A stretch of 51,176 nucleotides of DNA, from contig QZIR01000032.1 of NCBI GenBank assembly GCA_003604975.1, forward strand, positions 1-51,176. Direction: 5' to 3'. Positions 2,760 through 51,176 of this stretch are shown here, one piece after another (position 1 is the first letter of the stretch; each line of letters starts with the position of its first letter). Position numbers and translations under genes: made by a program. This DNA is from Desulforudis sp. Its GTDB lineage: Bacteria > Bacillota > Desulfotomaculia > Desulfotomaculales > Desulforudaceae. The notes under the pieces were generated by a model. That model saw only the letters and a program-made list of their open reading frames with translations. It made no database searches and was not told the origin of the DNA.

Positions 2760-3015
2760 GTCTGCCTTGCGGCAGTAGGTCCACTTCGCCAATGTTACGC
2801 CAGGTTTTTGCCAGCAACACTTCTCCTACCTCTCAGAGATGTTTAGCCACTGGCCGCAGTGTATGGGACGTGTGGAGTATCCCATGGTGCCTATGTCATT
2901 CCGGCGTAACGTAGCCCGATGGCGGGATTATCCCGCCCTGGCTGAGGCTAATCAACCGGGCTTACAGGTTTCCCTATAAGCCCCTTCCTAGCGGAGCTAG
3001 GAAGGGGTAGTTGAC
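2760..3015 (-). ncRNA. HEARO/omega RNA of iscB copy 1
   Basis: The minus strand starts with GUCAACUACCCC, then a perfect 12-bp hairpin (3007-2981, stem CCCCTTCCTAGC), further hairpins, and a long-range stem pairing 2910-2901 (GTTACGCCGG) with 2803-2794 (CTGGCGTAAC), followed by ACAUUGGCGAAG. The same layout recurs upstream of the other two iscB genes. In IscB systems the guide lies just 5' of the scaffold. Here that is the sequence immediately upstream of 3015, which is the 3' coding end of radC. The 3' end of the RNA is an estimate. Confidence 0.78.
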
Positions 3016-4103: not shown

Positions 4104-4114
4104 CCCTCCTTTCG

Positions 4115-4345
4115 CCGGGGCCTGGACGGCCACCGGATAATAGTGACCGCCTTGCCCAGGCGGAGGGTGCGCGAACCCGCGCGAAACTTTATTAAAACCG
4201 GAGCCAATGGCTCCAGTCAGACTAAGTTTTTAAAGGACTACGCAAAGCAGCTAACTGGTTTACGTCCGGTCCCTCCGGGACCGGCAAGTTGAATCTTTAC
4301 GTCCGGTCCCTCCGGGATCGGCAAAGCGACTGAAAACTCTTTGGG
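4115..4345 (-). promoter_or_regulatory. Leader A: tandem hairpins, terminator and conserved hairpin pair
   Basis: In the order of transcription (minus strand): the motif CAGTCGCTTTGCC; two copies of a hairpin with stem CCGGTCCC and GGA loop (4321-4303 and 4284-4266), each followed by ACGTAAA; a terminator-like hairpin GGAGCC-ATT-GGCTCC with GGTTTTAAT (4214-4190); then a conserved block (4165-4115) holding a CCGCC/GGCGG hairpin, the linker TCACTATTAT and a CCGG-GGCC hairpin. The block ends just before the AAAGGAGGG ribosome site. The same modules in the same order recur at 14658-14960 before an unrelated gene. I do not recognise a known riboswitch class; a cis-regulatory or antitermination element is inferred. 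No strong promoter is visible for this copy. Confidence 0.7.
4190..4214 (-). terminator. Intrinsic terminator inside leader A
   Basis: Minus strand: a six-base-pair hairpin GGAGCC-ATT-GGCTCC followed by GGTTTTAATAAAG. It lies between the tandem hairpins and the gene, where an attenuator would sit. The short stem and mixed U-tract make it moderate in strength. Confidence 0.5.
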
Positions 4346-4455
4346 ATCCCCCGCCGCAACCGTGGCATTATCCACGGCTGGGGCCGGGGCCGGAAATGAT
4401 CCGGCCCGACAGGAGGGCCAGCCGCCCGCGTAAATTCTGCGGGCGGCCACCCACC

Positions 4456-5586
4456 TTAAGCTTCTTTTCTGCCCACGGCCACCTCCATGGTAACCGTCCT
4501 CGTGATGGTCACCGGCACGCCGTCCAGGAGCAGGGTCACCGACGACACTTCTTTTCTGTGGAGCTTTAGAAGCACGTCGTCTATCCCTTTCCCCTGGGCA
4601 TGGAGCCAGGTGGCCCTCCGTGGGGAGAACCCCTGCTTTTTCAGCTCTGCGACGAACTCTCGCGCCTGGTTTTCGGCCTCGCTTTTCCGCAGGTCCGCGT
4701 CGAAGGCGATTACCGGGGTCTTCGCGCCGACCGCGTTCAGAACGTCCAGGGCCGCCTTCCAGGCCGCGGCCCCGCCGGAGCCGACGAAGCGGCTGTCCAT
4801 CAGGTGCGCGGCCACGTCGGCCTTCAGGGGGCCCTCCGTGACCCACACCCCGGTTCCGCTGCCGGCGCAGTGCGCCGGGCTGCCGGGGGAGGCGCCGTTT
4901 GGTTTCCCGTGGCTTGAAAACCAGAGATATTTCCCGTTTCCGGAGTCGTCGCACCGCACTTTGAGGGCCTGGATCAGGCCCTCGGGAGCGCGGACCGGAA
5001 TCAGATAGCCGGCCGGGCCGAAGAAGTCCCAGTAAGGGCCGTAGCGACCGCTCCTGGTAAAGAATCCGGGCACCCCCTCCAGGGAATGCTCCCGGACCAG
5101 CCACCGGCAGATCTTCCACCGGTGGCGAGCGTCTTCGGGGACAGACCGGTACCCGTTCCTGCGGATTGACTCCTCGTCCAGTCCCCGGCGCAGGAGGTCG
5201 TCCTTGTGCGACGGGTAGAGGGATAGAACAGAAAGAAAAGCCCGGTAGACTTCATTGCGGTGCTCGACCGGCGCCAGGCCGTCCGGGTTCCGGGACGCCC
5301 TGGGGGGCTCCGGAACGGGTTCGTCCAGGCCAAGCATCTGTCTGGCCTCCCGGCCGTCAACGCCGCGGAGCCTCCTGGCCAGACCGACTAAACCGCCCTC
5401 CTCCCCGCACCGGTGGCACTTCCAGTGCCCCGTCGCGGCGTTCAGATAGAAGTGCCCCTTGTCGGGGTGTTTTCGAGAATCCCCGCAGAAGGGGCACCGG
5501 AAGATCCTTTCTTCGCCGGGGCCGTTCTTGGTGAATTTAAGCCCCAACCGAACAGCGACGGAGACAGGATCAACAGCCGTAGCCAA
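4456..5586 (-). CDS. Primase-like protein: CHC2-type zinc finger plus toprim domain
   Basis: A 376-residue protein. The N-terminus has a zinc ribbon of the primase CHC2 type (CPFCGDS...HWKCHRCGEEGG, ~residues 31-65). The central/C-terminal part has a toprim-like segment (WVTEGPLKADVAAHL, the Glu of motif I; later VIAFDADL with DxD), as in DUF3854/phage P4-type primases. The layout indicates priming of replication of the mobile element. No helicase domain is fused; the protein is short compared with DnaG and lacks its helicase-binding region. Its start overlaps the end of the upstream HAD-like gene by 17 bases, so the two are probably translationally coupled. Confidence 0.83.
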   Translation of the reverse strand: MATAVDPVSVAVRLGLKFTKNGPGEERIFRCPFCGDSRKHPDKGHFYLNAATGHWKCHRCGEEGGLVGLARRLRGVDGREARQMLGLDEPVPEPPRASRNPDGLAPVEHRNEVYRAFLSVLSLYPSHKDDLLRRGLDEESIRRNGYRSVPEDARHRWKICRWLVREHSLEGVPGFFTRSGRYGPYWDFFGPAGYLIPVRAPEGLIQALKVRCDDSGNGKYLWFSSHGKPNGASPGSPAHCAGSGTGVWVTEGPLKADVAAHLMDSRFVGSGGAAAWKAALDVLNAVGAKTPVIAFDADLRKSEAENQAREFVAELKKQGFSPRRATWLHAQGKGIDDVLLKLHRKEVSSVTLLLDGVPVTITRTVTMEVAVGRKEA

Positions 5587-6067
5587 CTTCCATCACCCCC
5601 GCCACCCGGACGGCGTTGGGCTCGTCCAGGCTTCGGTTGTACGGCCAGTCCGGGTAGAGAACGGCGATCCCGGACCTGGCATAGAGCCTTATCGCCTCCG
5701 GGTCGTCATCCAAGGCCAGCGCTGCGCCCAACTTTTGGGCCACGGCCAGCTTCTCCCGCGCATCGGCGCAGAAAAAGACCGGACCATCGGGGAAGCCGTG
5801 GAGCTTGAGCCACCGTTTGGTGACAAGCTCCGCATCCCGGGGGCGGCAGGTGGCGTAGGCCAGACCGCCCAGTTTTTCGGATAGTCCCCGCAGGCACTCC
5901 ACCGCTCCCGGGATGGGGTCGGCCTTCTGGAAGACCATCAGGCCGGTCCCCGACGGCCAGAAGCCCTTCGGGATCGGAGCCGGGTAAACGCCCCGTGGCA
6001 CTTCGAAGACGCGGTGCAGGTAGCCGTTGACATCGGCGAGTGTATTGCAGATGTCGGATATGACCAT
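5570..6067 (-). CDS. HAD-superfamily phosphatase (5'-nucleotidase-like)
   Basis: A 165-residue protein with the HAD signature: motif I ISDICNTLAD (nucleophile Asp5, but DxC in place of the usual DxD general acid), motif II Thr in AYATCRP, and motif IV ALDDDPEA. It resembles small deoxynucleotidase-like HAD enzymes often carried by phages and plasmids for nucleotide pools. The altered second Asp of motif I could lower hydrolytic activity; this is inference. ATG start with GAGGAGG seven bases upstream. A strong hairpin pair lies just before the SD (see 6082-6127). Confidence 0.75.
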   Translation of the reverse strand: MVISDICNTLADVNGYLHRVFEVPRGVYPAPIPKGFWPSGTGLMVFQKADPIPGAVECLRGLSEKLGGLAYATCRPRDAELVTKRWLKLHGFPDGPVFFCADAREKLAVAQKLGAALALDDDPEAIRLYARSGIAVLYPDWPYNRSLDEPNAVRVAGVMEVGYGC

Positions 6068-6081
6068 CTTTAAACCTCCTC

Positions 6082-6127
6082 ATCTCCCCGGGCCGCCCCG
6101 GGAGATTTAATAATCTCCCCGGGGCGG
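6082..6127 (-). promoter_or_regulatory. Alternative-hairpin leader before the HAD-like gene
   Basis: Minus strand: a central ATCTCCCGGGG segment can pair with an upstream CCGGGGAGAT (hairpin around TATTAA) or with a downstream CCCGGGGAGAT that abuts the GAGGAGG ribosome site. The two pairings exclude each other. A second leader with the same design is at 6404-6452. This suggests a translational switch; the signal, if any, is unknown. Confidence 0.5.
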
Positions 6128-6136
6128 AAGGGTTAG

Positions 6137-6337
6137 CTAACCCAGGGCCTTCTTGATCTCTTCCTCGGTCAACTTTTCCCCGGCGGCGCACCTCCGGAGT
6201 AGTTCATCGAGAGTCGCCACGTGAGGAAAAGCCAACACCGCAAGCTTGTTCCAAGCTTCGGCGGAGATCAAGAAGGCACCGAAGCTCCCAACGTAAGGGA
6301 TGGAAGATTCGATAGCTTCTTTATACTGCCGCTTCAT
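6137..6337 (-). CDS. Small hypothetical protein
   Basis: A 66-residue protein beginning MKRQYKEAIESSIPYVGSFG, with an acidic, helical C-terminus (LDELLRRCAAGEKLTEEEIK). No family recognised. Its ATG overlaps the end of a 21-codon ORF (6321-6386) that has a strong Shine-Dalgarno, so it is likely translated by coupling to that ORF rather than from its own ribosome site. No membrane segment; probably cytoplasmic. Confidence 0.55.
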   Translation of the reverse strand: MKRQYKEAIESSIPYVGSFGAFLISAEAWNKLAVLAFPHVATLDELLRRCAAGEKLTEEEIKKALG

Positions 6338-6386
6338 ATGCGGCTAGCTGTTGGCGGAGATTGGCAAGTTCTGTTTGTTGCTCCAT
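6321..6386 (-). CDS. 21-codon ORF with strong ribosome site
   Basis: It encodes MEQQTELANLRQQLAAYEAA then V and a stop. It is preceded by AAGGAGG at good spacing and follows a hairpin leader (6404-6452). It overlaps the next gene's start by 17 bases, which fits a coupling leader peptide. A frameshift that split one longer gene is the alternative. Confidence 0.4.
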   Translation of the reverse strand: MEQQTELANLRQQLAAYEAAV

Positions 6387-6403
6387 TTTTCTTCGCCTCC
6401 TTT

Positions 6404-6452
6404 TCTCCCGGGCCGCGCCTCGGGAGACATTGTGGTCTCCCCCCGGCGCGGC
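6404..6452 (-). promoter_or_regulatory. Second alternative-hairpin leader
   Basis: Minus strand: GGGAGAC-CACAAT-GTCTCCC extended by flanking GCCGCGCC/GGCGCGGC gives a strong hairpin. The inner TCTCCCG can instead pair with CGGGAGA next to AAGGAGG. The organisation matches 6082-6127, but the stem sequences differ, so the structure seems to be conserved rather than only the sequence. Confidence 0.48.
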
Positions 6453-6465
6453 GGGGCGGAAGAGA

Positions 6466-7122
6466 TTAATAGTGGTAATTCAAGAACACCAGAGCATACC
6501 ATTCGGGATGCTTTCTGGCGTTTTCTAGCGTCTCGGACGAAATTCGGGATGAATAATCCGGCACGCTGTAGAACTGCGAGTCGAACGTGTACTCTCCGAT
6601 AGCCGGGCGCAGGGCATCAACAAGCCGGTATACAAGATGGCCCAGCTCGTGAGTGCCGTCCCAAATTCTTCGAATGTTGTCCGGAGTGATGGTCGGCAAC
6701 GGCAACGGAACAGCGGACCAGAATTGTCCACCAATTGTTACACTGCCATTCAGCGGATTATCGAAGATGGTATAGCCACCGGCTTCGATTTCTTGCCTGG
6801 TGCGCCAGCCCCAATCGCGACCGATGCACCACTCAAAATTTTCCAGAGCTGCTTCGAGCGGCTTGTTACGCCACTCTTCCAGAGCGTTCAGAAAGCGCTC
6901 CGGGTCTTTGTAGCCAAGGATTACCCCACAGTGAGGGTAATCATCGGCCCACCGGCCGGCATTTTCGCGACGCCAGTCAAAGACACGGCCTTCATGGTTC
7001 TTGGTGGCATCGAGGGCTTCCTGGCGGAAGTCTTCCACCAGGAGCTGAACGTCTTCCGCGTCGAAGGATTCGCCTTTTTGGATGTTTTCAAACCGCACCA
7101 ATACGCAGTGCAGTGCGTGCAT
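6466..7122 (-). CDS. Conserved hypothetical protein, paralogue of the intron-interrupted gene
   Basis: A 218-residue soluble protein starting MHALHCVLVRFENIQKGESF. A segment THELGHLVYRLVDAL (~residues 150-165) has a HExxH-like HELGH, so a zinc hydrolase fold is possible but unproven. Its N-terminus is clearly related to the truncated gene at 923-1093. No in-frame alternative start was found. The nearest good SD (GAGGAGG) is ~46 bases upstream of the ATG, and a 10-bp hairpin (GCAGTAGGCC/GGCCTGCTGC) fills the gap, as at the paralogue. Family not recognised. Confidence 0.65.
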   Translation of the reverse strand: MHALHCVLVRFENIQKGESFDAEDVQLLVEDFRQEALDATKNHEGRVFDWRRENAGRWADDYPHCGVILGYKDPERFLNALEEWRNKPLEAALENFEWCIGRDWGWRTRQEIEAGGYTIFDNPLNGSVTIGGQFWSAVPLPLPTITPDNIRRIWDGTHELGHLVYRLVDALRPAIGEYTFDSQFYSVPDYSSRISSETLENARKHPEWYALVFLNYHY

Positions 7123-7207
7123 TCGATAGGGCGCAGCAGGCCCCCGGCGGCCTACTGTGCCAACACCTCCTCGTGCCGGATTTACAGGCCGGTCGGGCGG
7201 CTTATGT

Positions 7208-8293
7208 TTAACTTGAGCCGGTTTTAGCTACGTGCCGGAAGTCTTCTTTGTGCTGGAGAGATGCCCCGAGGGCACGGATTCTCTCTCCGTCCCAGCCGAG
7301 CTTCTTGAGCCCGGCGGCGGTCAGGGAGAGAATCTTGAAGGGGTCAACCCCCTCATGCTCCATGGCCGCGACGGCCTTTTTTAGTGATTCCTGCGGCCAC
7401 TTCCAGTAGTTGGAAGGAGCGATCCGGAACTCCCTGGAGTCAACCGTCACGGGGCCGTGCCGTTCGACCCAGCCCCGAAGGCGGCCTTTTAAGATATCCG
7501 CGGCTGTCTCTAGGCGCAGGATTTCACGTCCCAGGGTGGCAGCTTCGTCGTAGCCGCGGACGAAATCCGGGACGTTGATCTCTTTCCCGGTACAGCTGTC
7601 CGCCCAGCCGCAGTAAAGACAGGCGGCTCCGGGCGCAGCCGGGAAGAGTTCCTTTCGGTCGCCCCCGTTCTGGAGGGCGTAGAGCCGCTCACGGATGTCG
7701 ACGGCGGTCTCATAAGCCCAATCTCTGGCAGCGGCAATCCCGTCTTCCGGGGTGTAAAGGTGCTCCCGGACCTCGCCGGTACGGAGAAACACCAACTTCC
7801 CGCGGACGGGCTTCCCGGTCTTCTCGTGGAGCCAACCGGCGTACAGCCCCAGCTGGTGTGTGTCCAGGGGATTGTACGCCTTCCGGTTCGTCTTCCAGTC
7901 GACCAGGAGAACTTCCAGACCGTCCAGCCAGAAGTCCAGGTAGCCCTGGATCTCTGGCCCGAAAGGATCTTCCGGGTCCAGGGGCATCTGGAAGCGCTCC
8001 TCGACGCTTCCACCCCAGTTCACCAGCCGGCGCACCAATGGCTGGCACGCCAGGCCGAACACTTCATCCGGGTCGATCTTCACCGGGGCCACGTCGGCCG
8101 CAACGCCGGACATGGCCCGGAAGAACGATTCGTCGTCCCGGCCGGCGGTCAAGGCCGCTTCGATGACGGCGTGGACAGCGCCGCCCAGAACCAAAGGTTC
8201 GGTGGGCGGCTCCGTGTGGCCCAAGACATACTGGTTATAAAAGGCCGCCGGACAACGGAACTTATCCAGGCGGCTGTAAGAGAAGATTTGCAT
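7208..8293 (-). CDS. RecB/Cas4-like PD-(D/E)XK nuclease with iron-sulfur cysteines
   Basis: A 361-residue protein of the PDDEXK_1 group: N-terminal YSRLDKFRCPAAF with Cys14, a His in GAVHAVIEAAL, core GYLDFWLDG...VLLVDWKTNRKAY (Asp, then D-x-K), QLGLYAGWL, and C-terminal CLYCGWADSC. One N-terminal plus three C-terminal cysteines match the 4Fe-4S staple of AddB and Cas4-type nucleases. Expected to resect DNA ends. It sits in the same run as Bet annealase and SSB, so it may supply the 5'-3' exonuclease of a Red-like recombination pathway. No cas1/cas2 is present, so a CRISPR role is unlikely. Confidence 0.85.
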   Translation of the reverse strand: MQIFSYSRLDKFRCPAAFYNQYVLGHTEPPTEPLVLGGAVHAVIEAALTAGRDDESFFRAMSGVAADVAPVKIDPDEVFGLACQPLVRRLVNWGGSVEERFQMPLDPEDPFGPEIQGYLDFWLDGLEVLLVDWKTNRKAYNPLDTHQLGLYAGWLHEKTGKPVRGKLVFLRTGEVREHLYTPEDGIAAARDWAYETAVDIRERLYALQNGGDRKELFPAAPGAACLYCGWADSCTGKEINVPDFVRGYDEAATLGREILRLETAADILKGRLRGWVERHGPVTVDSREFRIAPSNYWKWPQESLKKAVAAMEHEGVDPFKILSLTAAGLKKLGWDGERIRALGASLQHKEDFRHVAKTGSS

Positions 8294-8333
8294 TTACAAC
8301 GCTCCTTTTTACGCGGGCTGAAGATAGCGACCA

Positions 8334-10481
8334 TCAGCCCGTTATGACTTTTTTAAACACCCGGCCCAAGACAACCGGGAGGCGGTCGACTTGGTGGACG
8401 TAGACCAGGTGATTGTACATCGCCCTGGCCCTGGGAAGGTCGCACTCGTCCCCGAAGTAGATCCCGATGACCCCGACCCCAGCCCTCTCCGCTTCGCGCA
8501 CGGCGCGGGCGGTGTCCGTAAAGGCAGCCGCGCCGCGATACCGGGAGTCGTAGTCGTCGTTCGGGAGCCCGTCGGACAGCACGACCAGAACCTTTTTGGG
8601 CTCCGGGCGCGCCGCCAGCTCCCGGGCGGCCACTCTAATCGAATACCCGTCCCGGTTGGCACCGTTGACCTTCAGGCCGGCTATCCCGGCGCCGTCGCTC
8701 CGGGCCCAGTCCACGGCCCGGCGGTGCAGCGCCACTTTGTCGGGCATCGCCGAAAACCCGACGACGCAATGCGCCACCTTCAGCGCGTTGCACATTTCGT
8801 GCAGTGCGCAAGTAGCGCTGCGCGCGTGCTCTATTTTTCTTCTCCGCTCCATCGATCCTGAGCAGTCCATCAGGAGGCAGACCGCCAGGGCGGGAACGTC
8901 GCCCGGCTCCTCTGTGCGACAAAACAATTCCAAGTCCGGAAGCCGGACCTTCCACAGCGCCCCGGGATCCAGGCGGCCCTTCTTTAGGGCGCGTCTGGGA
9001 ACGGAACGCTGGTACTCCAGCGTCTTCCTGATTTCGTCCACCAGGCGGCGGATCAGGCCAGCCTGATTTCGGACCAGGTTCTGGTACGACGGATCAGGAT
9101 GCGCAACTTCGGTTACCAGGCGCACGCCATGGTGGATGTCCCGGCCCAGCTCTTTCGCGACCCGGTCGAAGTCAAAATCGGGGGCCGCTTCCCGCTCCCG
9201 AAGCTTTTCCTCGCGCTCGACGCCGCTTTCGACCCTGGCAAGCTCTTCTTCGGCGCTTTCCAGGAGGGCTTCGAGCTCCGGGTCCAAGTCGGGCTCTTCC
9301 GGCGGGTCAAAGTCGTCACCCCGGGGATGACCGCCTTGACGATCGCCACCCGGAGCATCGGAGCCGTCTTCCCCGGGTTCCCCGCCGGAATCGCCGGAGG
9401 CGCCGTCTTCCGGTTTCGGAGCGGACTCTTCCGGTTCTAGACCAGAGCCGTCGGCTTCCGGAGCGGATTCTTCCGGTTCCGGACCGGGCTCGCCGGAAGG
9501 CTCCTCTTGCTCAGGGTCCCCGGGTTTCTCGCCATCCGACCGTTCTCCGGTTTCCGGCTCCGGAGCGGATTCTTCCGGCTCTGGGCTGGAGTCACCGGCT
9601 CCCGGATCGGATCCTTCCGGTTCCGGACCAAGTCCATCGGCTTCCGGCTCTTTCGTCTTCGGATCGCTGGAAGGCTCTTTCTGTTCAGAATCCCCGGGCT
9701 TTCCCTCCGGTTCCATTTCGGAGCCTTCCGGAGCTTTTTCGGGAGGCTTGCCCGGTTCGGGCTCTCTCACCCTTCGAGGGTCCAGCGGGCCTTCCAGAGC
9801 AGGCCGGGGCGTTGACGTCCCCGGCATTGGAGGAGGCGGCGGAACGGACACCCCGGGGTAGGTTGCTTCAGCAAGCTTGTGAATTTCCTCGGCCTGCCGG
9901 AGCACCCCCCAGGTGTCTCCAAGAACCCTTGCCCGGTCGACGAAAGGCCTGCACTTTTCGATCAGGCTTTTCTCTTCCGGGCCCAGGGCGTCCGGCACAA
10001 CCCCAGCGACCGCATAGGCGCAGAGCCCTTTTAGAAATGCATCTGCGCCCTCGTCCCAGTCGGTCCGGTTCTTCGAGATATACTCATTCACGAACCGGAA
10101 CCAGAGCAGGGTCCCCGGGTAGGCGTTGGCCGTCGCGCGCTCGACGCGGGCGTCTTCCAAAATGTTTACGATGTTTTGGAAGAGCGGCCCGCGGGAGACA
10201 GCTTCCTCCCAGGCGCTTTTGTCCGTGAACAGGATGTGCCCGGCCTCGTGGGCGCACCCCGCTTTTATTGCCACCCAGCGCTCCGCTTTAGATGCGGGGA
10301 CGCCGGGGACGATGCACTCATCCTGGTCCAAGTCGCGGACCGTGATGGCCGTCAGGTCGGTATGAAATCCGGACCCGAAGTGGACCAGGATGCTGTTCGC
10401 ATCCGTGAGTGCACGCGCCAAGGTTTGAAGGCGCGTGCGCTTTCTTTCCGTGCGCTTTCTTTCTTTGAGGATTGCGGACAT
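8334..10481 (-). CDS. VWA-domain protein with metallopeptidase-like N-terminus (CobT-like)
   Basis: A 715-residue protein. The N-terminal ~200 residues contain HEAGH (78-82) and ILEDARVER, a pattern seen in CobT-like and related VWA proteins and reminiscent of zinc peptidases. Residues ~215-410 are a very acidic, Pro/Glu-rich repeat linker (PEPEESAPEPE-like units), probably disordered. The C-terminal domain is a von Willebrand A fold with MIDAS MDCSGSM. Its start overlaps the stop of the MoxR-type ATPase gene in TAATG. Such AAA+/VWA pairs act as metal-dependent remodelling or chelatase-like machines. A cobalt chelatase role is unlikely here, as no cobalamin genes are present. Confidence 0.82.
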   Translation of the reverse strand: MSAILKERKRTERKRTRLQTLARALTDANSILVHFGSGFHTDLTAITVRDLDQDECIVPGVPASKAERWVAIKAGCAHEAGHILFTDKSAWEEAVSRGPLFQNIVNILEDARVERATANAYPGTLLWFRFVNEYISKNRTDWDEGADAFLKGLCAYAVAGVVPDALGPEEKSLIEKCRPFVDRARVLGDTWGVLRQAEEIHKLAEATYPGVSVPPPPPMPGTSTPRPALEGPLDPRRVREPEPGKPPEKAPEGSEMEPEGKPGDSEQKEPSSDPKTKEPEADGLGPEPEGSDPGAGDSSPEPEESAPEPETGERSDGEKPGDPEQEEPSGEPGPEPEESAPEADGSGLEPEESAPKPEDGASGDSGGEPGEDGSDAPGGDRQGGHPRGDDFDPPEEPDLDPELEALLESAEEELARVESGVEREEKLREREAAPDFDFDRVAKELGRDIHHGVRLVTEVAHPDPSYQNLVRNQAGLIRRLVDEIRKTLEYQRSVPRRALKKGRLDPGALWKVRLPDLELFCRTEEPGDVPALAVCLLMDCSGSMERRRKIEHARSATCALHEMCNALKVAHCVVGFSAMPDKVALHRRAVDWARSDGAGIAGLKVNGANRDGYSIRVAARELAARPEPKKVLVVLSDGLPNDDYDSRYRGAAAFTDTARAVREAERAGVGVIGIYFGDECDLPRARAMYNHLVYVHQVDRLPVVLGRVFKKVITG

Positions 10482-11908
10482 TACGACACCCCCTTCACGC
10501 AGGCGTCTATGACGTCCCCGATCTGGTCGGCCTCGTACCGGTCGCCCAATCCTTCGGTGAGCACGGACTGGGCCGCGGACTTTAAGGGGCCGACTCCGTC
10601 ATGGTACTCCCGGACGGCCCGGATGAGAGCGCGAACGGAGAGCACCCTTTCGGAAAGGTCCCCGTTCTCCACCCGGGCGGCCAACTTATGAAAGAGGCCG
10701 GCCAGCTGCTGCGCCGTGTCGGCGGAGCAGCCCGTATCCCTGACCAGGAGGTCCGCAAGGGATCCATCCGGAAGATGGGGCACCTGGACGGACCGGAAGC
10801 GGTCTTGGAACGCCTCATTCAGCTCTTTGGTTCCGGCGTAGCCGTAGTTCATGCAGGCTACCAGCCGGAACGACTCCGGGGCCTTCACCGTACCTAGCCC
10901 CGGGACGGAAAGCGTCTTCTGCCAATCCAGGAGGCCGTGAAGGAGCGAGGTCACTTCGGGGACAACCATATTTATTTCGTCCACGACGATCATTTCCCCG
11001 GCCTGGACGGCCTGGAGCAGGAGCCCGGGCTCGAAGGCCACGCGAAGCTGCGCCCCGCGGAGCCTTTGAAGCACGTCCCCGATCTCCACACCGGCCTGCT
11101 TGGCCGCGGCCCGGAGTTTCGCTTCGGTCACCAGGTCCAGACCCTGCTCGGAAGGGACGAGCGTCTTGGAGCCGAGCAGATACTCGGCGTTGACGTCGAC
11201 CCCGCCGAAGAGCTTGCTCAACGGCAGGTGCAGAACGGCCGCCAGGGTCTCGGCCAGGGTGGACTTGCCCGACCCCTTGGGGCCGATGAGAAGCGGCGCC
11301 TCCCACTGAACCCCGTTTTCCCCGTAGACCAGGGACGCCACGGCGGCGACCAGCTCTCTACCGCTCGCCACGTAGCGCGGGCGCGGAACCCGGGCGGCCT
11401 GCTCCGGGGCGAGCCGGGCCTTTTGAACTTCCCGGAACCGGAGCACCTTCTCCAGGACCCTGGGCGGCAGTTTGTACTCTGCCAGCCAGGCGTCATCCGG
11501 AGGGAGTTCCGCCGGAGGGAGTTCCGGCGGAGTTTCTTTAGGTTCCGGCTCCGGCCCGCCCAGGGCGACAAGCTGAAAGTCACCCGGGCGGCCGAGTTGC
11601 TTATTGGTTATGTCCCGCAGGCCCGAAAGCGTGTCAGGGAAAAAGTCCGGAACGACGTCGACATCCCAGGGGAAACCCCATCCGGCGGCTTCGACCGCGG
11701 CGGCGAGGTGCCAACACGGCCTGTTGCTCTGCACGGCTTTACAGACGTGCCAGATGCGGAACTGGTCCAGGTCCGCAATAACGAGGTCCCGATGGCCCCC
11801 GGTCTTCGAGGTGTACTCGACGACCAGGTGGGAGCGGTTTCTGGCGATGCCCGACACCAGGGGCTTGTTCTCGTGGAACTTGCCCTGGTTCTTGGGCCAA
11901 ACTTTCAT
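10481..11908 (-). CDS. MoxR-family AAA+ ATPase with N-terminal SWIM-like zinc domain
   Basis: A 475-residue protein. The N-terminus (~1-80) resembles a degenerate SWIM zinc finger (IWHVCKAVQSNRPCWH: His54, Cys56, Cys65, His67), a fold that binds DNA or protein. The ATPase follows: Walker A GPKGSGKS (208-215), Walker B MIVVDEIN, and a MoxR/CbbQ-like arrangement. RBS AGGAGG before ATG. It forms a one-base-overlap pair with the VWA gene downstream, the classic MoxR/VWA partnership. The SWIM fusion is unusual for a MoxR protein. Target unknown; placement in the recombination/replication operon suggests remodelling of a nucleoprotein complex. Confidence 0.82.
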   Translation of the reverse strand: MKVWPKNQGKFHENKPLVSGIARNRSHLVVEYTSKTGGHRDLVIADLDQFRIWHVCKAVQSNRPCWHLAAAVEAAGWGFPWDVDVVPDFFPDTLSGLRDITNKQLGRPGDFQLVALGGPEPEPKETPPELPPAELPPDDAWLAEYKLPPRVLEKVLRFREVQKARLAPEQAARVPRPRYVASGRELVAAVASLVYGENGVQWEAPLLIGPKGSGKSTLAETLAAVLHLPLSKLFGGVDVNAEYLLGSKTLVPSEQGLDLVTEAKLRAAAKQAGVEIGDVLQRLRGAQLRVAFEPGLLLQAVQAGEMIVVDEINMVVPEVTSLLHGLLDWQKTLSVPGLGTVKAPESFRLVACMNYGYAGTKELNEAFQDRFRSVQVPHLPDGSLADLLVRDTGCSADTAQQLAGLFHKLAARVENGDLSERVLSVRALIRAVREYHDGVGPLKSAAQSVLTEGLGDRYEADQIGDVIDACVKGVS

Positions 11909-11929
11909 GATTTTGATCCCTCCTGAAAG

Positions 11930-11973
11930 AAAAAGGGGACAGGCTCCCGCTTTAAGGGAACCTGCCCCTTTTT
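11930..11973 (-). terminator. Strong intrinsic terminator between bet and the MoxR gene
   Basis: A long hairpin (AAAAAGGGGCAGG...CCTGTCCCCTTTTT) with A and T tracts on both sides, so it can act in either direction. On the minus strand it would separate bet from the MoxR/VWA pair unless it is read through. Confidence 0.8.
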
Positions 11974-11989
11974 AAGGTTTTTGGAACTG

Positions 11990-13192
11990 TTAGGCCGCCC
12001 GGTCGACGTAGAGAACGGTCTTGCCGTTCTCCTCCACCATCCGGGCGGGGATTTCGACCTCCTGGCCATCCTGGAAACCGGCCACGGTCTCCAGGCCGCC
12101 GTCCACGCCGGCGACCACCACCTGGCGGCCGTCATTCGTCCGGGCGTAGACCCAGACGATTTCTCTCAGAGTGCCGCCGAAGTCCTTCTTGCCCCTCTTA
12201 GGGGCGGACTTGACGGTCACCTTCGCCGTCAGCTCCTGGGCGGTTTGGGCGGCAGGTTCGGGTTTGGTTTCGGAGATGATTTCAAACTCCTCCACCTTAA
12301 CCCGGGTCCCGGATTTGGTTTTGGCCCGGAGACCATTTATCCGGAGAACTTGACCCTCCTGGAGGGTCTCTACCGGGCCGACCAGGGTCAGGCCCGTATC
12401 GGTTAGCACGTCGAAGGCCTGAACTTCCCAGCCCCGGGACTTTTTCTCCGGGGCGGCCGCAATGATCACCTGCCCTTCGTAGGGCTCGGGAGGCTCGGGT
12501 TCCTTTGCGGTCTTCTCCGAGGGTTCCGGCACGGTGTCCGCTCCGGAACTCGCCGGGCCGGGGGATTCCTGGGCAGGAGCTTCTTGAACGGGTGCCGGTT
12601 CCGACGCGACCACAGGCTCCGCGACATCCACAGGCTGGCGAACATGCAGCACGGACTCTGCATCTGCCTGCTGCATCTCGTCGTCTGTATAGATGCCGCT
12701 CAATTCCGCCGGAAACGCTTTCCGGAGGGCCAGAGCCTCGGCGCACTTTGAGAGCTGGTTTCGGGGCATTTTTTGCCACATGCGTAACGGTTGCTCCTTG
12801 GAGTTGGTCTGGACGTACTCATTCCAGTACGCCACAGCCGACACTTCGAACCAGCGGTCGCCTACCCGCTTCATGACGTAGGCGACGGCCGAGAAGATCT
12901 TGTCGCCTCGCTCGGCGATTTCCGGGGCTCTCCCGGGCGCGTACAAGCCGGTCCGGTCCGCCACGGCCCGGAAGCCATCGATTCCGGTCTGGATGGACCA
13001 GGATGACTCCCACTGGGCTGTCTCTTTGTTCCACCGCTTGCGCTCAAGCAGGTGGATCTGGTTGGTGAGCGGGTCCAAGCCCGCTCTCTTGGCCTGGTAG
13101 ACGAACAACCGAAGCTGTTCCTCTGGGGCCGCAGGATACAGTTTTTTGAGCAGGTCCACCTGCTCTGAAGCTAGGCCGAACCATTTTTCCAT
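11990..13192 (-). CDS. bet: Bet/RecT-family single-strand annealing protein with C-terminal extension
   Basis: A 400-residue protein whose first ~190 residues match phage recombination protein Bet: FVYQAKRAGLDPLTNQIHLL, SWSIQTGIDGFRAVADRTGLY, and the late block LSKCAEALALRKAFPAELSGIY. It anneals complementary strands on SSB-coated DNA. After a Pro/Glu/Ala-rich linker (~200-260) there is a beta-rich extension of ~140 residues (residues ~262-400) of unknown role, not typical of lambda Red beta. ATG start with AGGAGGGG. ssb lies directly upstream and a RecB-like nuclease further downstream, giving a self-contained recombination kit. Confidence 0.88.
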   Translation of the reverse strand: MEKWFGLASEQVDLLKKLYPAAPEEQLRLFVYQAKRAGLDPLTNQIHLLERKRWNKETAQWESSWSIQTGIDGFRAVADRTGLYAPGRAPEIAERGDKIFSAVAYVMKRVGDRWFEVSAVAYWNEYVQTNSKEQPLRMWQKMPRNQLSKCAEALALRKAFPAELSGIYTDDEMQQADAESVLHVRQPVDVAEPVVASEPAPVQEAPAQESPGPASSGADTVPEPSEKTAKEPEPPEPYEGQVIIAAAPEKKSRGWEVQAFDVLTDTGLTLVGPVETLQEGQVLRINGLRAKTKSGTRVKVEEFEIISETKPEPAAQTAQELTAKVTVKSAPKRGKKDFGGTLREIVWVYARTNDGRQVVVAGVDGGLETVAGFQDGQEVEIPARMVEENGKTVLYVDRAA

Positions 13193-13235
13193 AATACCCC
13201 TCCTGTTCCCGGCGCTTGCCGGGGATTTTTGAAAA

Positions 13236-13265
13236 TTAAGGGGAGCGGAAAACCGCTCCCCTTAA
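13236..13265 (-). terminator. Terminator after ssb
   Basis: Minus strand AAGGGGAGCGG-TTTT-CCGCTCCCCTT followed by AATTTTC. An 11-bp stem with a U-rich tail. It lies between ssb and bet, so read-through or a separate promoter is needed for bet. Confidence 0.75.
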
Positions 13266-13268
13266 AAC

Positions 13269-13282
13269 GGGTATGCGCATAC
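13269..13282. repeat. GTATGCGCATAC palindrome, copy 1
   Basis: The 12-bp palindrome GTATGCGCATAC (13271-13282) overlaps the ssb stop codon. Two other copies, with longer arms, lie at 15704-15715 and 20391-20402. About 0.003 copies of a given 12-mer would be expected by chance in 51 kb on one strand. Confidence 0.7.
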
Positions 13283-13689
13283 TAGAACGGAATCGGCTCA
13301 TCGTCCCCGCCAACCCAAGGGTCTTCCGGCAGGGGCGGCGGCTCAACCCCGCCCGGAGCGTCGTTCTTTTTGCCATCGGGCATGAAGACGACGCGCTGGG
13401 CGACGATCTCAGCGGCCTTGCGCCGCACTCCCTGGCTGTCGTCGTAGGACCGGATTTGCAGCCGGCCCTGGACGGTGACCAGACGGCCCTTAGCCAAGTA
13501 CTTGGCGACGCTTTCCGCCTGGTCGCGCCAAACGACCACATCAACAAAGTCGGTCTGCTTCTTGCCGCTGGTGTCCGCGAACCCGCGGTCCACCGCGATG
13601 GTGAAACGGGTGACCGGAGTGCCCTGCGCCGTGTAGTTCATTTCCGGGTCACGCACAAGACGGCCGATGAGAATGCACGAATTAAGCAT
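13282..13689 (-). CDS. ssb: Single-stranded DNA-binding protein
   Basis: A 135-residue OB-fold SSB beginning MLNSCILIGRLVRDPEMNYT, with the conserved GTPVTRFTIAVDR, FVDVVVW and GRLVTVQGRLQIRSY blocks and the acidic C-terminal tip DDEPIPF that recruits partner proteins. The start is set by AAGGAGG nine bases before this ATG; a longer frame upstream lacks a ribosome site. It coats single strands during element replication and supports the Bet annealase encoded next. A GC-rich hairpin precedes the SD. Confidence 0.95.
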   Translation of the reverse strand: MLNSCILIGRLVRDPEMNYTAQGTPVTRFTIAVDRGFADTSGKKQTDFVDVVVWRDQAESVAKYLAKGRLVTVQGRLQIRSYDDSQGVRRKAAEIVAQRVVFMPDGKKNDAPGGVEPPPLPEDPWVGGDDEPIPF

Positions 13690-13760
13690 TTCTAGACTAC
13701 CTCCTTGACTTTTTGGATTGGTTTCCGCCGCCGGGGCGGCGGCAGAATTGTGATGCTCAG

Positions 13761-14288
13761 TTAACAAACCGCCCGACGAAGCATCAGGCGGCAGTTGGCA
13801 GCCGACAGCCTCTCCAGCAGGGAGAGATTCAGTTTCCGGAGGACACGCAGCTGGCTCTGCAATCGCTCCACTTCCATCTGCAGGAAGTAGGGATCAACAG
13901 AGCTCACTTCCTCCGGGGGTGGCTCGGGCGCGGTTTTACGGTACTCCCAGGCGGCGCGGTAGACGTCCCTGGATGTCCAACTTTCTCTGTCCGCCCGGCG
14001 AACTAAAGCCACCGGATCCAGAGTTCTCATAAGGACCCGGTGAGCTTCAAAAGACAGTTTCGGGCTCCGGGCCCCCGGGGGGTAAACCCGGGCCGTCTCC
14101 ACTAACTCCCGTACCCTTCCGGCCGTGGAACCGACGACGGCGGCGACTAACCTGCAGTCTAGCCCATCATCGCACACCTGGAGGCAGACGTCAGCCCGCG
14201 CCCAGACCTTCTCGCTTCCCTCCAGGGAAGCGGCGGCATCCCAGGCGGCCTGAACGCGCAGCAAGGCGTTCAGGGTTCTAGAATCCAC
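13761..14288 (-). CDS. Hypothetical protein, possible helix-turn-helix
   Basis: A 175-residue protein starting at GTG (MDSRTLNALLRVQAAWDAAA) with GAGGAGG seven bases upstream. A segment LVAAVVGSTAGRVRELVETARVYP resembles a helix-turn-helix. The C-terminus is a coiled-coil-like leucine/arginine helix (MEVERLQSQLRVLRKLNLSL). It could be a small DNA-binding regulator of the ssb-bet operon, but no family is recognised. Confidence 0.65.
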   Translation of the reverse strand: MDSRTLNALLRVQAAWDAAASLEGSEKVWARADVCLQVCDDGLDCRLVAAVVGSTAGRVRELVETARVYPPGARSPKLSFEAHRVLMRTLDPVALVRRADRESWTSRDVYRAAWEYRKTAPEPPPEEVSSVDPYFLQMEVERLQSQLRVLRKLNLSLLERLSAANCRLMLRRAVC

Positions 14289-14415
14289 GCAATCACCTCC
14301 TCAAGCGGCACTGGGGCCCCTGCTTTTAGGCATGGGAAGGAAAGTGCCGCAGATTTTTGTACCCCCTTGCAGGGGTGGGGAGCAGAAACTTGCTCCGCTG
14401 GAAATGGAGAGCCGC

Positions 14416-14637
14416 CTACGCGATCCTGTAGACCACGCAAAGCGGCTCGTCTTTCCGGAAGCGCCGCACGGTGGTGGCAATTCCAGTCTTTTGGAGTTCC
14501 CGGGCGCGTTTGTGCGCCCATTCGTCCCCCGGCGACACGGTGTCGCGGCGGGGAGACTTTGTGTTTCCCTGCGCCGCCCGGAGCGTGGCCGGGACGGCCA
14601 GAAGCTGCCGGATCTGCATCTGCTGCCGGATCTGCAT
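14416..14637 (-). CDS. Small hypothetical protein behind leader B
   Basis: A 73-residue basic protein, MQIRQQMQIRQLLAVPATLR..., with an internal repeat MQIRQ(Q/L). The C-terminal part (ELQKTGIATTVRRFRKDEPL) looks like a small alpha/beta fold. ATG start with AAAGGAGGG and good spacing. It is the first gene of the ssb-bet run and is preceded by the 320-nt leader B. It does not resemble the small gene behind leader A, although the leaders match. No family recognised. Confidence 0.65.
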   Translation of the reverse strand: MQIRQQMQIRQLLAVPATLRAAQGNTKSPRRDTVSPGDEWAHKRARELQKTGIATTVRRFRKDEPLCVVYRIA

Positions 14638-14657
14638 CTTTCGATCCCTCCTTTAAA

Positions 14658-14960
14658 CCGGGGCCTGGACGGCCACCGGATAATAGTGACCGCCCACCCA
14701 GGCGGAGGATAAGTATTGGACATTTTTTTGGAGACAAACACAAAAAGCCCACACTGACGGCTTTGTTCCGTCAAACGAGGGCTTTTGGGCATATCCTCAC
14801 CCGACCCGAAGGTCAGGTGCTACTTGATTTTAGTCTGGTGAACAGCCAGGGCTTGGCCCCAGCATCTTGCGTCCGATCCCTCCGGGACCGGCAGAATAAC
14901 TAGCCTTTTACGTCCGATCCCTCCGGGACCGGCAAAGCGACTGAAAAACCTTTGGGTTTT
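14658..14960 (-). promoter_or_regulatory. Leader B: second copy of the tandem-hairpin leader
   Basis: Minus strand, in order: CAGTCGCTTTGCC; two CCGGTCCC-GGA-GGGATCGG hairpins (14932-14914 and 14891-14873), each followed by ACGYAA; about 80 bases; a strong intrinsic terminator (14788-14740); then the conserved block 14708-14658, which matches leader A 4165-4115 almost base for base, with hairpins CCGCC/GGCGG and CCGG-GGCC and the linker TCACTATTAT; then AAAGGAGGG. G-U pairs replace G-C pairs in the tandem stems relative to leader A, so pairing is kept. Likely a cis-acting RNA controlling entry into the ssb-bet operon. Confidence 0.75.
14740..14788 (-). terminator. Intrinsic terminator inside leader B
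   Basis: Minus strand CAAAAGCCC...TGACGG-AACAAAG-CCGTCA...GGGCTTTTTG followed by TGTTTGT. Two stacked stems and a U-tract make a convincing terminator. It lies upstream of the first gene of its operon, so transcription must read through it for the gene to be expressed. Confidence 0.78.
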
Positions 14961-14984
14961 TACTTACAAGCGATGCCTACCAAG

Positions 14985-15013
14985 AGAATACCGCAACGAC
15001 TGTCTCCTGTCAA
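14985..15013 (-). promoter_or_regulatory. Sigma-70-type promoter of leader B
   Basis: Minus strand: TTGACA (15013-15008), a 17-base spacer and TATTCT (14990-14985). The -35 is perfect and the spacer optimal. Transcription would start near 14978 and run into leader B. It sits just past the stop codon of the gene at 15021. Confidence 0.75.
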
Positions 15014-17382: not shown

Positions 17383-18231
17383 TCAGCCAACGGCGCGACG
17401 AAGCACTCTGATGGGCGTGCCCCTGATCCTCCCCGCGGGCCGGCCGCTGTCTACCTTTGTGTCGATCCTGTCGACGACAAAAGCAACCTCGTCGCCCTTC
17501 CGGGGGACTTCGCTGCGAAAGTGGCGCAGCAAAGCGTTGACGCCAGGCTCAAGCGCAACGAAGATCCCGAAGTTCGTGACGCCGGTCACGACGCCGCGGT
17601 AGAAGGCGTTTTTGGCGTACCTCCTGGTGGCGTCCGGCCAGGGGTTCGGAATCAGGTCCTTGATAGAAACTATGAGCCTTTGCTTTTCCCGGTCCAGCTC
17701 TTTGATTTTTACGTCAAAGCTCTCGCCGGGCTGGATGACGTCGACGATCTCGTCCACCCATCCGTAGGAGATTTCGGACGCGGGAAGAATGCCCTCGACG
17801 CCGCCGATTTCGACAACCACGGCCTTGCCATGGACCCTCCTGGCGATGCAGGTCTTGACGTCCCCTTCTTTGAGTTCCGGCCAGGTGCGGGAGGAGAGCC
17901 GCTCCAGCGCCGCCTTTCGGGACGCCAGGAACCACTCGTTGTTCAGGTCGATGTTGGTGACCACGAAGTCAAGCTCCTGGCCAAGAAGGCCCAGAAGGCG
18001 ACTACGGGTGGCGGCCTTGCCAGGTCCGGGGTCAACCCCCGACTCCTGGAGAGGGATCAGGCCCTTGACGCGCTCCTTACCCACCACCAGGCACAAGACC
18101 TTCTCTTCACCGTCGCGGAAGCGCAGGGCGTGCTCCTCGACGCCGATCACCGGCCATTTCAGGGCGCTCCGGTTCTGGCGGGAGGCGTAAACCTCCGGCC
18201 ACACGTTCGTGAAAAACTCTTTTTTCTCCAA
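17383..18231 (-). CDS. S1 RNA-binding domain protein (RpsA-like)
   Basis: A 282-residue protein with a fairly clear S1 domain at ~115-190 (GDVKTCIARRVHGKAVVVEIGG...ILPASEISYGWVDE...FDVKIKELDREKQRLIVSIKD) and a second at ~208-272 (FYRGVVTGVTNFGIFVALEPGVNALLRH). The N-terminal 110 residues may be a third, degenerate repeat. It resembles a shortened ribosomal protein S1/YugI. It would bind single-stranded RNA, perhaps structured leaders of the element or host mRNAs. ATG start with AAAGGAG. Its presence on a mobile element is unusual but not unique. Confidence 0.82.
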   Translation of the reverse strand: MEKKEFFTNVWPEVYASRQNRSALKWPVIGVEEHALRFRDGEEKVLCLVVGKERVKGLIPLQESGVDPGPGKAATRSRLLGLLGQELDFVVTNIDLNNEWFLASRKAALERLSSRTWPELKEGDVKTCIARRVHGKAVVVEIGGVEGILPASEISYGWVDEIVDVIQPGESFDVKIKELDREKQRLIVSIKDLIPNPWPDATRRYAKNAFYRGVVTGVTNFGIFVALEPGVNALLRHFRSEVPRKGDEVAFVVDRIDTKVDSGRPAGRIRGTPIRVLRRAVG

Positions 18232-24113: not shown

Positions 24114-24536
24114 TTAGGCGGACCGGAGCATTTGGTTTTCTACCTCAACCGCCACCTTGTCATTAAAGAAAGTCACCACGACCTTGCTTCTTTCCGGCCC
24201 GGCGTGCTTGACCGTACCAATCAGCCCCATCAACGGCCCGCCCAGGATTTCCACCCGGTCGCCTTGTTTGAAGGGGGTGAATTGGCCGGCGCTGTCCATC
24301 ATTCCGGCGATTTCGGCCCAGGACACCTGTCCTATCACGCGGTGCCAGGTGGCCAACCCCCTCAGATACGGCTCGGGCCACATGTCGGATTCGATAAAGA
24401 CATATCCGGAGAGAGAGTCCTGGATGGTCAGGACCTGCCCGACCTTCCCGGCCAACCCGTTGTTTTTCTGTTTTTCCAAGTATTTCTTAACTTTGTTTTC
24501 GTGACGCGTAGTCACTTGTACGGCATACCAGTGCAT
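24114..24536 (-). CDS. NusG paralogue (specialised antitermination factor)
   Basis: A 140-residue protein with an NGN domain (MHWYAVQVTTRHENKVKKYL..., ~1-85) and a KOW domain (FKQGDRVEILGGPLMGLIGT..., ~88-130). It is shorter and more divergent than housekeeping NusG and sits in the conjugation/partition block, as do LoaP, ActX and UpxY-like paralogues that modify RNA polymerase at selected operons. The window contains at least two leaders with hairpins ahead of terminators and several terminators placed directly before ribosome sites; these are natural candidate targets. Antitermination is inferred from family and context. Confidence 0.85.
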   Translation of the reverse strand: MHWYAVQVTTRHENKVKKYLEKQKNNGLAGKVGQVLTIQDSLSGYVFIESDMWPEPYLRGLATWHRVIGQVSWAEIAGMMDSAGQFTPFKQGDRVEILGGPLMGLIGTVKHAGPERSKVVVTFFNDKVAVEVENQMLRSA

Positions 24537-35738: not shown

Positions 35739-36902
35739 CTACCAAACCAGCACGTAAGCCAAGCCGCGCGGACGATGCAGAAGCTTCGCCTTCGAGTACG
35801 ACACCTCAAAGTTGCTGTCACTCGCCGTCCGCAGAGTTACGGCCCGCGCCTTCAGGCTTCTCACACAACCGAACACGACCTTTCCCGCACGCACGGCCCG
35901 CACTATGTCCCAGTGCCGCAAACCGCTCCTTTCCTCGCAGGTCTTCGTGGGGTTGCCCTCCCACTTCCGCCTGCGGAGCGGGTAGATCAAGTGCTCTGGC
36001 CCGAAAAACTTCAGCGGCTTGCTGGGAGGGAACAGGGATGCCGCGTTGCTCACGTGCGACTTGGGAAGATTCAGCGACTCCCGCCACTCCTTCGTCTGCC
36101 AGCCCTTACACGTCCGCACTTCACCAAACCGGGACAGCAGGGCCAGCAGGTACATCTTGCCCTGCGCCGCGTGGGTCACCCAAGCGAAGGTCTTACCCTT
36201 CCTGTCCAGGTGGGCGTCACCCGCGTGGAGCTTCCGGTGACACTCCTCACACAGCGCAACCTGGTTCACCGGTGTATCAGAGCCGCCCTTCGACCGCGGA
36301 ACCAGGTGGTGCCGCTGCAGTTTCTTCGCGGAGCCGCACAAGACGCAAGCACCGTCCCGATTCAGCACTTTCTCCCGGGTGCTTTCACCTGGCAGGGATG
36401 GGTTCTTCACCCCTGCCGAAACAATCTCTACGTCCACGCCGGAAATGGGCGCTACCTTCGCCAGGTCAGATAGGACGCGGCATATGGCTTCCTTTTTCTG
36501 CCGGATGCTCGGGAAGGGGGTCGCTTGCTTCCTGTTCCGGTTCCGGCACGACCGGTGGCGCACGATACGGTAGCGGCGGTTCCGGCGGTACCCCCGCCGG
36601 AGAGTAAGAAGGCGTACCACGTCCCCGCGCTGAACCAAAACGCTGCGGAAGACCACTTCGCCCGTGTGTTCGTTGACCAGCGCAATTCCGACTTTCTTCG
36701 ATCCGTCATCCACCTTAGCTCGCAGAGAGCCGACGGGATTCGGAACCGCATACTTGAGCCTTATCGCGAACGGCATCCCGCGCTCCACCACGGCATTTCC
36801 GGACTTGAGAAGCTTTCGCGCCCGCGCCGGGTGGCAGGGCAAGAGCGGCTTTCCTTCCGCGTCCACGACAAAAATCTTCGGATAATTGAAAAAGACGGCC
36901 AT
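35739..36902 (-). CDS. iscB: IscB-type nuclease (copy 2), RuvC-III aspartate replaced
   Basis: A 387-residue IscB: PLLP variant of the PLMP segment (19-22), RuvC-I KVDDGSKKVGIALV (Asp65), Arg-rich bridge (~103-124), RuvC-II Glu159, HNH CVLCG...QRHHLVPRSKGG...CEECHRKLH (His198/199, Asn213, His222). The RuvC-III block reads KSHVSNAASL where the other two copies have KSHINDA and KSHANDA. The catalytic Asp is therefore Asn286, which predicts loss of RuvC cleavage and a nickase through HNH. ATG start in GGAGGCTGGCCTTAGATG. It is inserted within the Tad operon between two flp genes. Short C-terminal domain. Confidence 0.88.
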   Translation of the reverse strand: MAVFFNYPKIFVVDAEGKPLLPCHPARARKLLKSGNAVVERGMPFAIRLKYAVPNPVGSLRAKVDDGSKKVGIALVNEHTGEVVFRSVLVQRGDVVRLLTLRRGYRRNRRYRIVRHRSCRNRNRKQATPFPSIRQKKEAICRVLSDLAKVAPISGVDVEIVSAGVKNPSLPGESTREKVLNRDGACVLCGSAKKLQRHHLVPRSKGGSDTPVNQVALCEECHRKLHAGDAHLDRKGKTFAWVTHAAQGKMYLLALLSRFGEVRTCKGWQTKEWRESLNLPKSHVSNAASLFPPSKPLKFFGPEHLIYPLRRRKWEGNPTKTCEERSGLRHWDIVRAVRAGKVVFGCVRSLKARAVTLRTASDSNFEVSYSKAKLLHRPRGLAYVLVW

Positions 36903-51014: not shown

Positions 51015-51176
51015 GAGTGATTGTGCCCTTCGCCAATGTTATCCCGGTTTGTCACGCCCGCCACACTGTCCCTACCCCGCGGGGCTGTTTAATGACGGGC
51101 CACAGGGTCCGGAGCTAGGGCTACACCCCGGAGTGTGATGACCGGGATAACGTGGGCCGCGAAGGCCCCCGCCGGA
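51015..51176 (-). ncRNA. HEARO/omega RNA of iscB copy 3 (partial at window edge)
   Basis: Minus strand: the perfect 10-bp long-range stem 51151-51142 (GTTATCCCGG) with 51047-51038 (CCGGGATAAC), then ACAUUGGCGAAGGGCACAAU; the ACAUUGGCGAAG block is identical to copy 1. Inside are hairpins such as CCCCGCGGGG. The 5' end and guide lie beyond the window. Confidence 0.7.

Follow-up and report, generated by a model that had tools for sequence, protein, structure and literature searches.

In the lambda nut boxB/N and HK022 put systems, short hairpins lie near the promoter and differ between related elements. The leaders that we describe here resemble them in both respects, although no N-like peptide was identified here and the terminators are intrinsic ones of the Bacillota type. 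The LoaP system of Bacillus velezensis combines a NusG paralogue with a small hairpin of the dfn/mln leader, an intrinsic terminator, and a long operon: LoaP binds the leader hairpin, which is required, and the polymerase then passes a NusA-enhanced terminator (PMC12691694). Antitermination by conAn takes place at the start of the long conjugative operons of pLS20-type plasmids from Gram-positive bacteria, which contain internal terminators, and the presence of terminators within a long operon is regarded as a sign of processive antitermination (PMC8955417). Finally, solitary CRISPR-repeat units, the Racr, constitute RNA anti-CRISPRs, and one of them, RacrIC1, is known to be directed against type I-C (PMC10651486).

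The window that we analysed, i.e., the whole stretch of 51,176 nucleotides, is one complete contig (C20) of a 3.1-Mb genome. It encodes a conjugative element, with a VirD4 protein of the CD1115 family, Tad/type II-IV secretion proteins, an ALP-type actin, a NusG paralogue, and an S1-domain protein. Like the LoaP system, this element combines a NusG paralogue carrying NGN and KOW domains, encoded near the target operon, with small leader hairpins and a long operon. An intrinsic terminator stands between the hairpins and the first gene in leader B of the window and in most leaders found at the start of an operon; a canonical one is missing from leader A and from most of its counterparts. Unlike LoaP, which uses one UNCG hairpin, the present elements carry tandem hairpins with GGA, GC-NNNN-GC, or CTTYTAAG apexes depending on their type, and the only UUCG loop is that of a CRISPR-like hairpin in leader B. 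Furthermore, the elements are here conjugative and an extra block is predicted to hide the ribosome-binding site (RBS). As with conAn, a leader stands at the start of a long conjugative operon with internal terminators, but here the NusG paralogue is encoded several kb upstream and leaders are found at more than one operon. Judged from sequence, these tandem-hairpin leaders with element-specific sequence are a real and undescribed family and, as to their function, we infer that they are best seen as a variant of hairpin-directed antitermination.

Anatomy of the Two Leaders

Leader A (4345-4104, minus strand) precedes a small gene and then RadC, while leader B (15013-14646, minus strand) precedes a 73-aa gene (14416..14637, minus strand) and the SSB/RecT/AAA/VWA operon. 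A homologue of the 73-aa protein, 74% identical, follows the leader of the related element G004. Downstream of leader B, the genes run 73-aa gene, SSB-like, RecT, AAA, VWA, PDDEXK, NT5C-like, and DUF3854, followed by leader A and RadC, and all the element genes listed, from the secretion genes through RadC, are on the minus strand. The small gene located after leader A (4103-3848, minus strand) looks frameshifted: MKVISYQTAAAVL... stops, and a plausible continuation, MLAEVDSDGKWRGAG..., is found in another frame. Common to the two leaders are a flank, a pair of GGA-loop hairpins, and an almost identical block that ends with the RBS. An earlier note on this DNA had described five modules in the same order, and we recovered all of them in both leaders, at the coordinates that it gave.

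The full hairpin unit, TTTGC-CGGTCCC-GGA-GGGACCG-GAC-GTAAA, is longer than had been drawn in this note: the upper stem is followed by a bulge of 3 nt and by a lower stem (TTTRC/GYAAA). In leader B, the first hairpin with its lower stem (B1) spans 14906..14936 (core hairpin at 14932-14914) and the second (B2) spans 14873..14891. In leader A, the corresponding hairpins, with their lower stems, are located at 4295..4325 (A1, core at 4321-4303) and 4258..4288 (A2, core at 4284-4266); all four are on the minus strand and have a GGA triloop. The spacing of the paired hairpins, announced as 37-41 bases, is 37 nt in leader A and 41 nt in leader B, and the single mismatch noticed in the first hairpin of copy A corresponds to an A.C in A1, with a G.U in leader B. 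When at most one mismatch is allowed, the GGA hairpin motif is found at four sites in the 3.1-Mb genome, all of them in leaders A and B, and the block GGCGGTCACTATTATCCGGTGGCC is matched genome-wide by the two leaders only. The folding of both full leaders beats all shuffles (z -5.4 and -3.9). For the window, the fold of lowest energy is one in which the two identical hairpins pair with each other, and the local hairpins are the minimum-energy fold in the relatives G004, G112, and G014. We infer that, in the window, these local hairpins would be favoured by co-transcriptional folding.

The promoter proposed for leader B, TTGACA-17-TATTCT, was located at 14985..15013 (minus strand; 10/12 in a consensus scan), and similar TTGACA promoters can be read by eye upstream of the leaders of G004, G014, and G112. 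The terminator claimed for each copy is clear in leader B, where an intrinsic one is detected by a terminator scan (14744..14785, minus strand). By contrast, that of leader A (4193..4216, minus strand) is a weak terminator-like hairpin, seen by eye as an 8-bp stem followed by TTTT and rejected by this stricter scan. Inside the operon itself, an intrinsic terminator occupies the gap between RecT and AAA (11936..11968, minus strand), and a terminator-like hairpin can be read in the sequence between SSB and RecT (about 13232..13265, minus strand).

Related Leaders and Covariation of the Hairpins

Using the VWA protein as an operon marker in 113 genomes of the same order, we found relatives on about 10 other contigs. 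Tandem hairpins are present at the same syntenic positions, and with similar spacing, in about nine conjugative elements of this order. These positions are before the SSB/RecT/AAA/VWA operon (leader B') and after the DUF3854 gene (leader A'), in a gene order that is kept: ALP - NusG - 196 aa - 296 aa - VirD4 ... S1 - 15021-type gene - leader B' - SSB - RecT - AAA - VWA - PDDEXK - DUF3854 - leader A'. The leaders located at operon starts mostly run promoter, tandem hairpins, intrinsic terminator, and RBS. The duplication seen in the window is real as regards its two copies, but these represent one type within a leader family of related conjugative elements and not mainly a two-copy duplication.

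The hairpin loops are type-specific among the elements. The GGA type is found in the window and, as one copy, in G021; the GC-NNNN-GC tetraloop type in G014 and in C65, a second element of the same genome as the window; and the CTTYTAAG type in G025 (two leaders, each with three copies), G112, G061 (five leaders), G060, and G090, where the hairpins are seen as single copies. G004 carries a near variant of the latter type and joins the types, since it associates the flank of the window (TTTTTTAGTCACTTTACCGG...CGGGCGCAAG) with a CTTTATGA apex and has both its downstream block and its first gene in common with the window. The lower stem of G021 is TTTTAC/GTAAAA, so that one pair occurs as G.U, as G-C (in B2), and as A-U. 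A fourth type was found in G055 (L057 6650-6380, 12878, and 19396-19320, minus strand), in the form of seven covarying hairpins accompanied by terminators; their outer stems covary around GATG-CCAC-ACGA-GTGG-GAAC, and they have no match in Rfam.

Among 14 hairpins of the CTTYTAAG type, 93.5% of the cells of the proposed stem are paired and five pairs are changed on both sides, counts that come from related sequences and do not represent independent events. None of 500 shuffles reaches any of the five covariation measures, and slid partners give at most 50%. This result holds with 33 model matches, for which the alignment is fitted to the model. We also built a covariance model (R1) without the window sequence and used it in a search space of 511 kb. 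R1 recovers A2 (18.5 bits, E 0.015), G021 (16.9 bits, E 0.05), B1 (13.9 bits, E 0.54), and A1 (12.2 bits, E 2.2), and misses B2; only A2 and G021 are individually distinct, B1 and A1 being at background score yet exactly on the hairpins. The earlier note had argued that selection has kept the modules, and had staked this view on the existence of further homologues with compensatory changes; such homologues were indeed found.

Its other proposal, that of an undescribed cis-regulatory leader, agrees with our Rfam search, in which no family, EAR included, reaches its gathering score in the leaders. In the phylum-wide search, R1 gives just scattered weak matches near background outside the order. 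Public collections of genomes and viral contigs, scanned for exact patterns, returned one chance match inside a coding gene and none in viral contigs; a search of a plasmid collection returned no similar leader and only distant relatives of the AAA protein; and a search of a literature collection found no such tandem-hairpin leader system.

A NusG Paralogue as Candidate Partner

The NusG paralogue of the window, a 140-aa protein with NGN and KOW domains (24114..24536, minus strand; Pfam NusG and KOW both over the cut-off), is our proposed antitermination factor. Paralogues of the same clade are kept in the same place in the window, G014, G025, G060, G061, G090, and G112, and nine genomes of the order contain one at E <1e-20. 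The window protein is related to LoaP, but with the LoaP family model NF033641 it reaches 39.3 bits, far below the cut-off of 125. The paralogue and the R1-type hairpins co-occur (P 2e-6, window left out), which shows membership of one system only, because both are linked on one element. More tellingly, the hairpin types match the NusG subclades (tree support 82-85, no branch starred). The gene is also present in G005, where its product is 69% identical, and in G011; the predicted GGA hairpins were not found in G005, where the element survives as a fragment only. No paralogue was found in the syntenic G055 nor in G111, and the rule that NusG-less elements lack hairpins is wrong for G055, which carries tandem hairpins. 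A third NusG-family host protein (G000:C29:28789-29067), common to G001, is distinct from both the housekeeping NusG and the element paralogue.

Because LoaP binds a leader hairpin and lets the polymerase pass a terminator, and because the NusG subclades match the hairpin types, we propose that the leaders serve as loading sites in a LoaP-like system of processive antitermination with element-specific hairpins, a proposal whose chances we consider evenly balanced. Once RNA polymerase has left the leader B promoter, the tandem hairpins would fold and recruit the element's own NusG paralogue, and the polymerase would then pass the terminator of the leader and those located inside the SSB-RecT-AAA-VWA operon. 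At leader A, placed after DUF3854, the last gene of the operon, the factor would be loaded again for the set of genes that follows, and stray transcription would be halted at the terminators. The anatomy of the leaders, their homologues, the covariation, the synteny of the NusG gene, the terminators, and the predicted RBS pairing were all obtained by computation. The synteny, the covariation, the recovery by R1, the terminators of the leaders and of the operon, and the match between NusG and hairpin types argue for this proposal. The main objection comes from the covarying tandem hairpins of G055, an element without the paralogue, as is G111; the mostly terminator-free A' leaders also speak against it. 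If antitermination by the NusG paralogue is correct, these elements would form a second group, carried by mobile elements and with several distinguishable hairpin types, i.e., a natural experiment on RNA reading by NusG paralogues, and would be a source of orthogonal protein-RNA pairs.

G055, which has no NusG paralogue yet retains terminators and its seven covarying hairpins, rather favours RNA-only processive antitermination (put-, EAR- or conAn2-like), in which the hairpins act in cis on the polymerase with no dedicated element protein, and RNA-based antitermination systems are known (PMC8955417). This mechanism nevertheless appears unlikely to us, since the paralogue is kept in most of these elements, the hairpin types follow its subclades, and neither EAR nor the others gives an Rfam match in the leaders.

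A Predicted Fold over the Ribosome-Binding Site

The shared block is located at 14646..14708 in leader B and at 4104..4167 in leader A (both on the minus strand) and ends in AAAGGAGGG (14654-14646 and 4112-4104, respectively). The nearly identical block of the earlier note is thus present, but the two small hairpins drawn in it correspond to an alternative form; the predicted fold is one long hairpin, which pairs CCTCC with the RBS GGAGG. This long RBS-pairing hairpin, CCTCC...AAAGGAGGG, is predicted in the window (twice), in G021, and in G004. Opening the RBS requires 4.5-10 kcal/mol, and the ensemble leaves the RBS ~30% unpaired. The two-hairpin form, for its part, shows in G021 a compensatory change from G-C to C-G. 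That the RBS region can adopt either of two mutually exclusive folds suggests, in these models, a translational control, and the block would add a second layer to antitermination by sequestering the first RBS in a hairpin. Homologues of the block exist in G021 and G004, and it is missing from most relatives; in leader A' of G090, an RBS pairing is readable by eye. The earlier note had seen neither this RBS-hiding fold, nor the NusG paralogue as likely partner, nor the solitary CRISPR repeat described below.

A block predicted to hide the RBS, together with A' leaders mostly devoid of terminators, would also suit another RNA-binding protein of the element, e.g., the S1-domain protein, binding the hairpins and controlling translation or mRNA stability and not termination. 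The S1 gene, encoded just upstream of leader B (17383..18231, minus strand), is present in all elements with that region, including the NusG-less G055 and G111. We consider this quite improbable, since in operon-start leaders a terminator stands between the hairpins and the RBS, and the usual target of S1 domains is single-stranded RNA, which they bind with low specificity. A metabolite riboswitch, or another attenuator using the whole leader, could account for a flank, a terminator, and an RBS-hiding block kept together in one leader, but is highly implausible: its ligand-binding core would be expected to stay fixed, whereas the short repeated hairpin loops differ between elements whose operons encode the same DNA-processing proteins, and Rfam gives no match. 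Just as implausible are palindromes serving as DNA operators of a repressor, for although at one position the two arms in the window change separately (A.C in A1, G.U in B), like half-sites, both arms change together around a constant apex in relatives, the arms differ among tandem copies of one leader, and the palindromes fall inside the predicted transcript.

A Solitary CRISPR Repeat in Leader B

Between B2 and the terminator, leader B contains GTAGCACCTGACCTTCGGGTCGGGTGAGGAT (14793..14823, minus strand), a solitary hairpin resembling a CRISPR repeat. A type I-C CRISPR-Cas locus, with Cas3, Cas5c, Cas8c, Cas7c, Cas4, and Cas1, is present in the same genome, and its array (C25:42941-45884) contains about 42 copies of ATAGCGCCCGGCCTTCGGGTCGGGTGAGGATTGAAAC. 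The window mimic is identical to this host repeat at 28 of 37 positions, 20 of them contiguous, and the best score among 74 other locus-strands is 25. Its 9-bp stem is kept with all nine pairs, every stem change keeping the pairing, and the 3' end of the repeat (TTGAAAC) is missing. The second element of the genome, on C65, carries a fuller copy (L053 12466-12430, minus strand), with 31/37 identity, including ATTGAAAC, and it passes the Rfam threshold of CRISPR-DR9. As in the Racr, of which RacrIC1 is an example (PMC10651486), a single repeat carried by a mobile element matches the repeat of the host I-C system in both sequence and stem structure. In contrast to them, the copy of leader B is part of an mRNA leader, where it stands between the tandem hairpins and the terminator, and is devoid of the 3' TTGAAAC.

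The solitary repeats of the window and of the C65 element are thus candidate RNA anti-CRISPRs, and the copy of leader B may, by its sequence, blunt host immunity. Its UUCG loop also resembles the UNCG hairpin of LoaP, an analogy that would point to a transcriptional role. Comparison of the host array spacers with the elements gave nothing convincing among the matches listed.

Antitermination by the NusG paralogue can be extended to a system in which rapidly diverging NusG paralogues would read private hairpin codes, each element would antiterminate only its own operons (compare the lambdoid boxB/N), and a CRISPR-repeat decoy, in one leader, would link an anti-CRISPR RNA to the element's transcript. 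We put this extended reading forward tentatively and with some doubt. If true, the decoy would tie counter-defence to the transcription control of a conjugative element.

Other Repeated Features of the Element

The element contains a repeated palindrome, GGGTATGCGCATACCC, at 15724-15695 and 20406-20387, with a partial copy at about 13281, and GTACGCGCGTAC-like palindromes lie close to the leaders of relatives; these palindromes may be the operator of a regulator acting on the whole element. The element also contains two HEARO RNAs and two RRXRR-HNH proteins (window 2775-3015, 51018-51176, 1328-2737, and 35739-36902), and further HEARO copies adjoin leader B' of G025.
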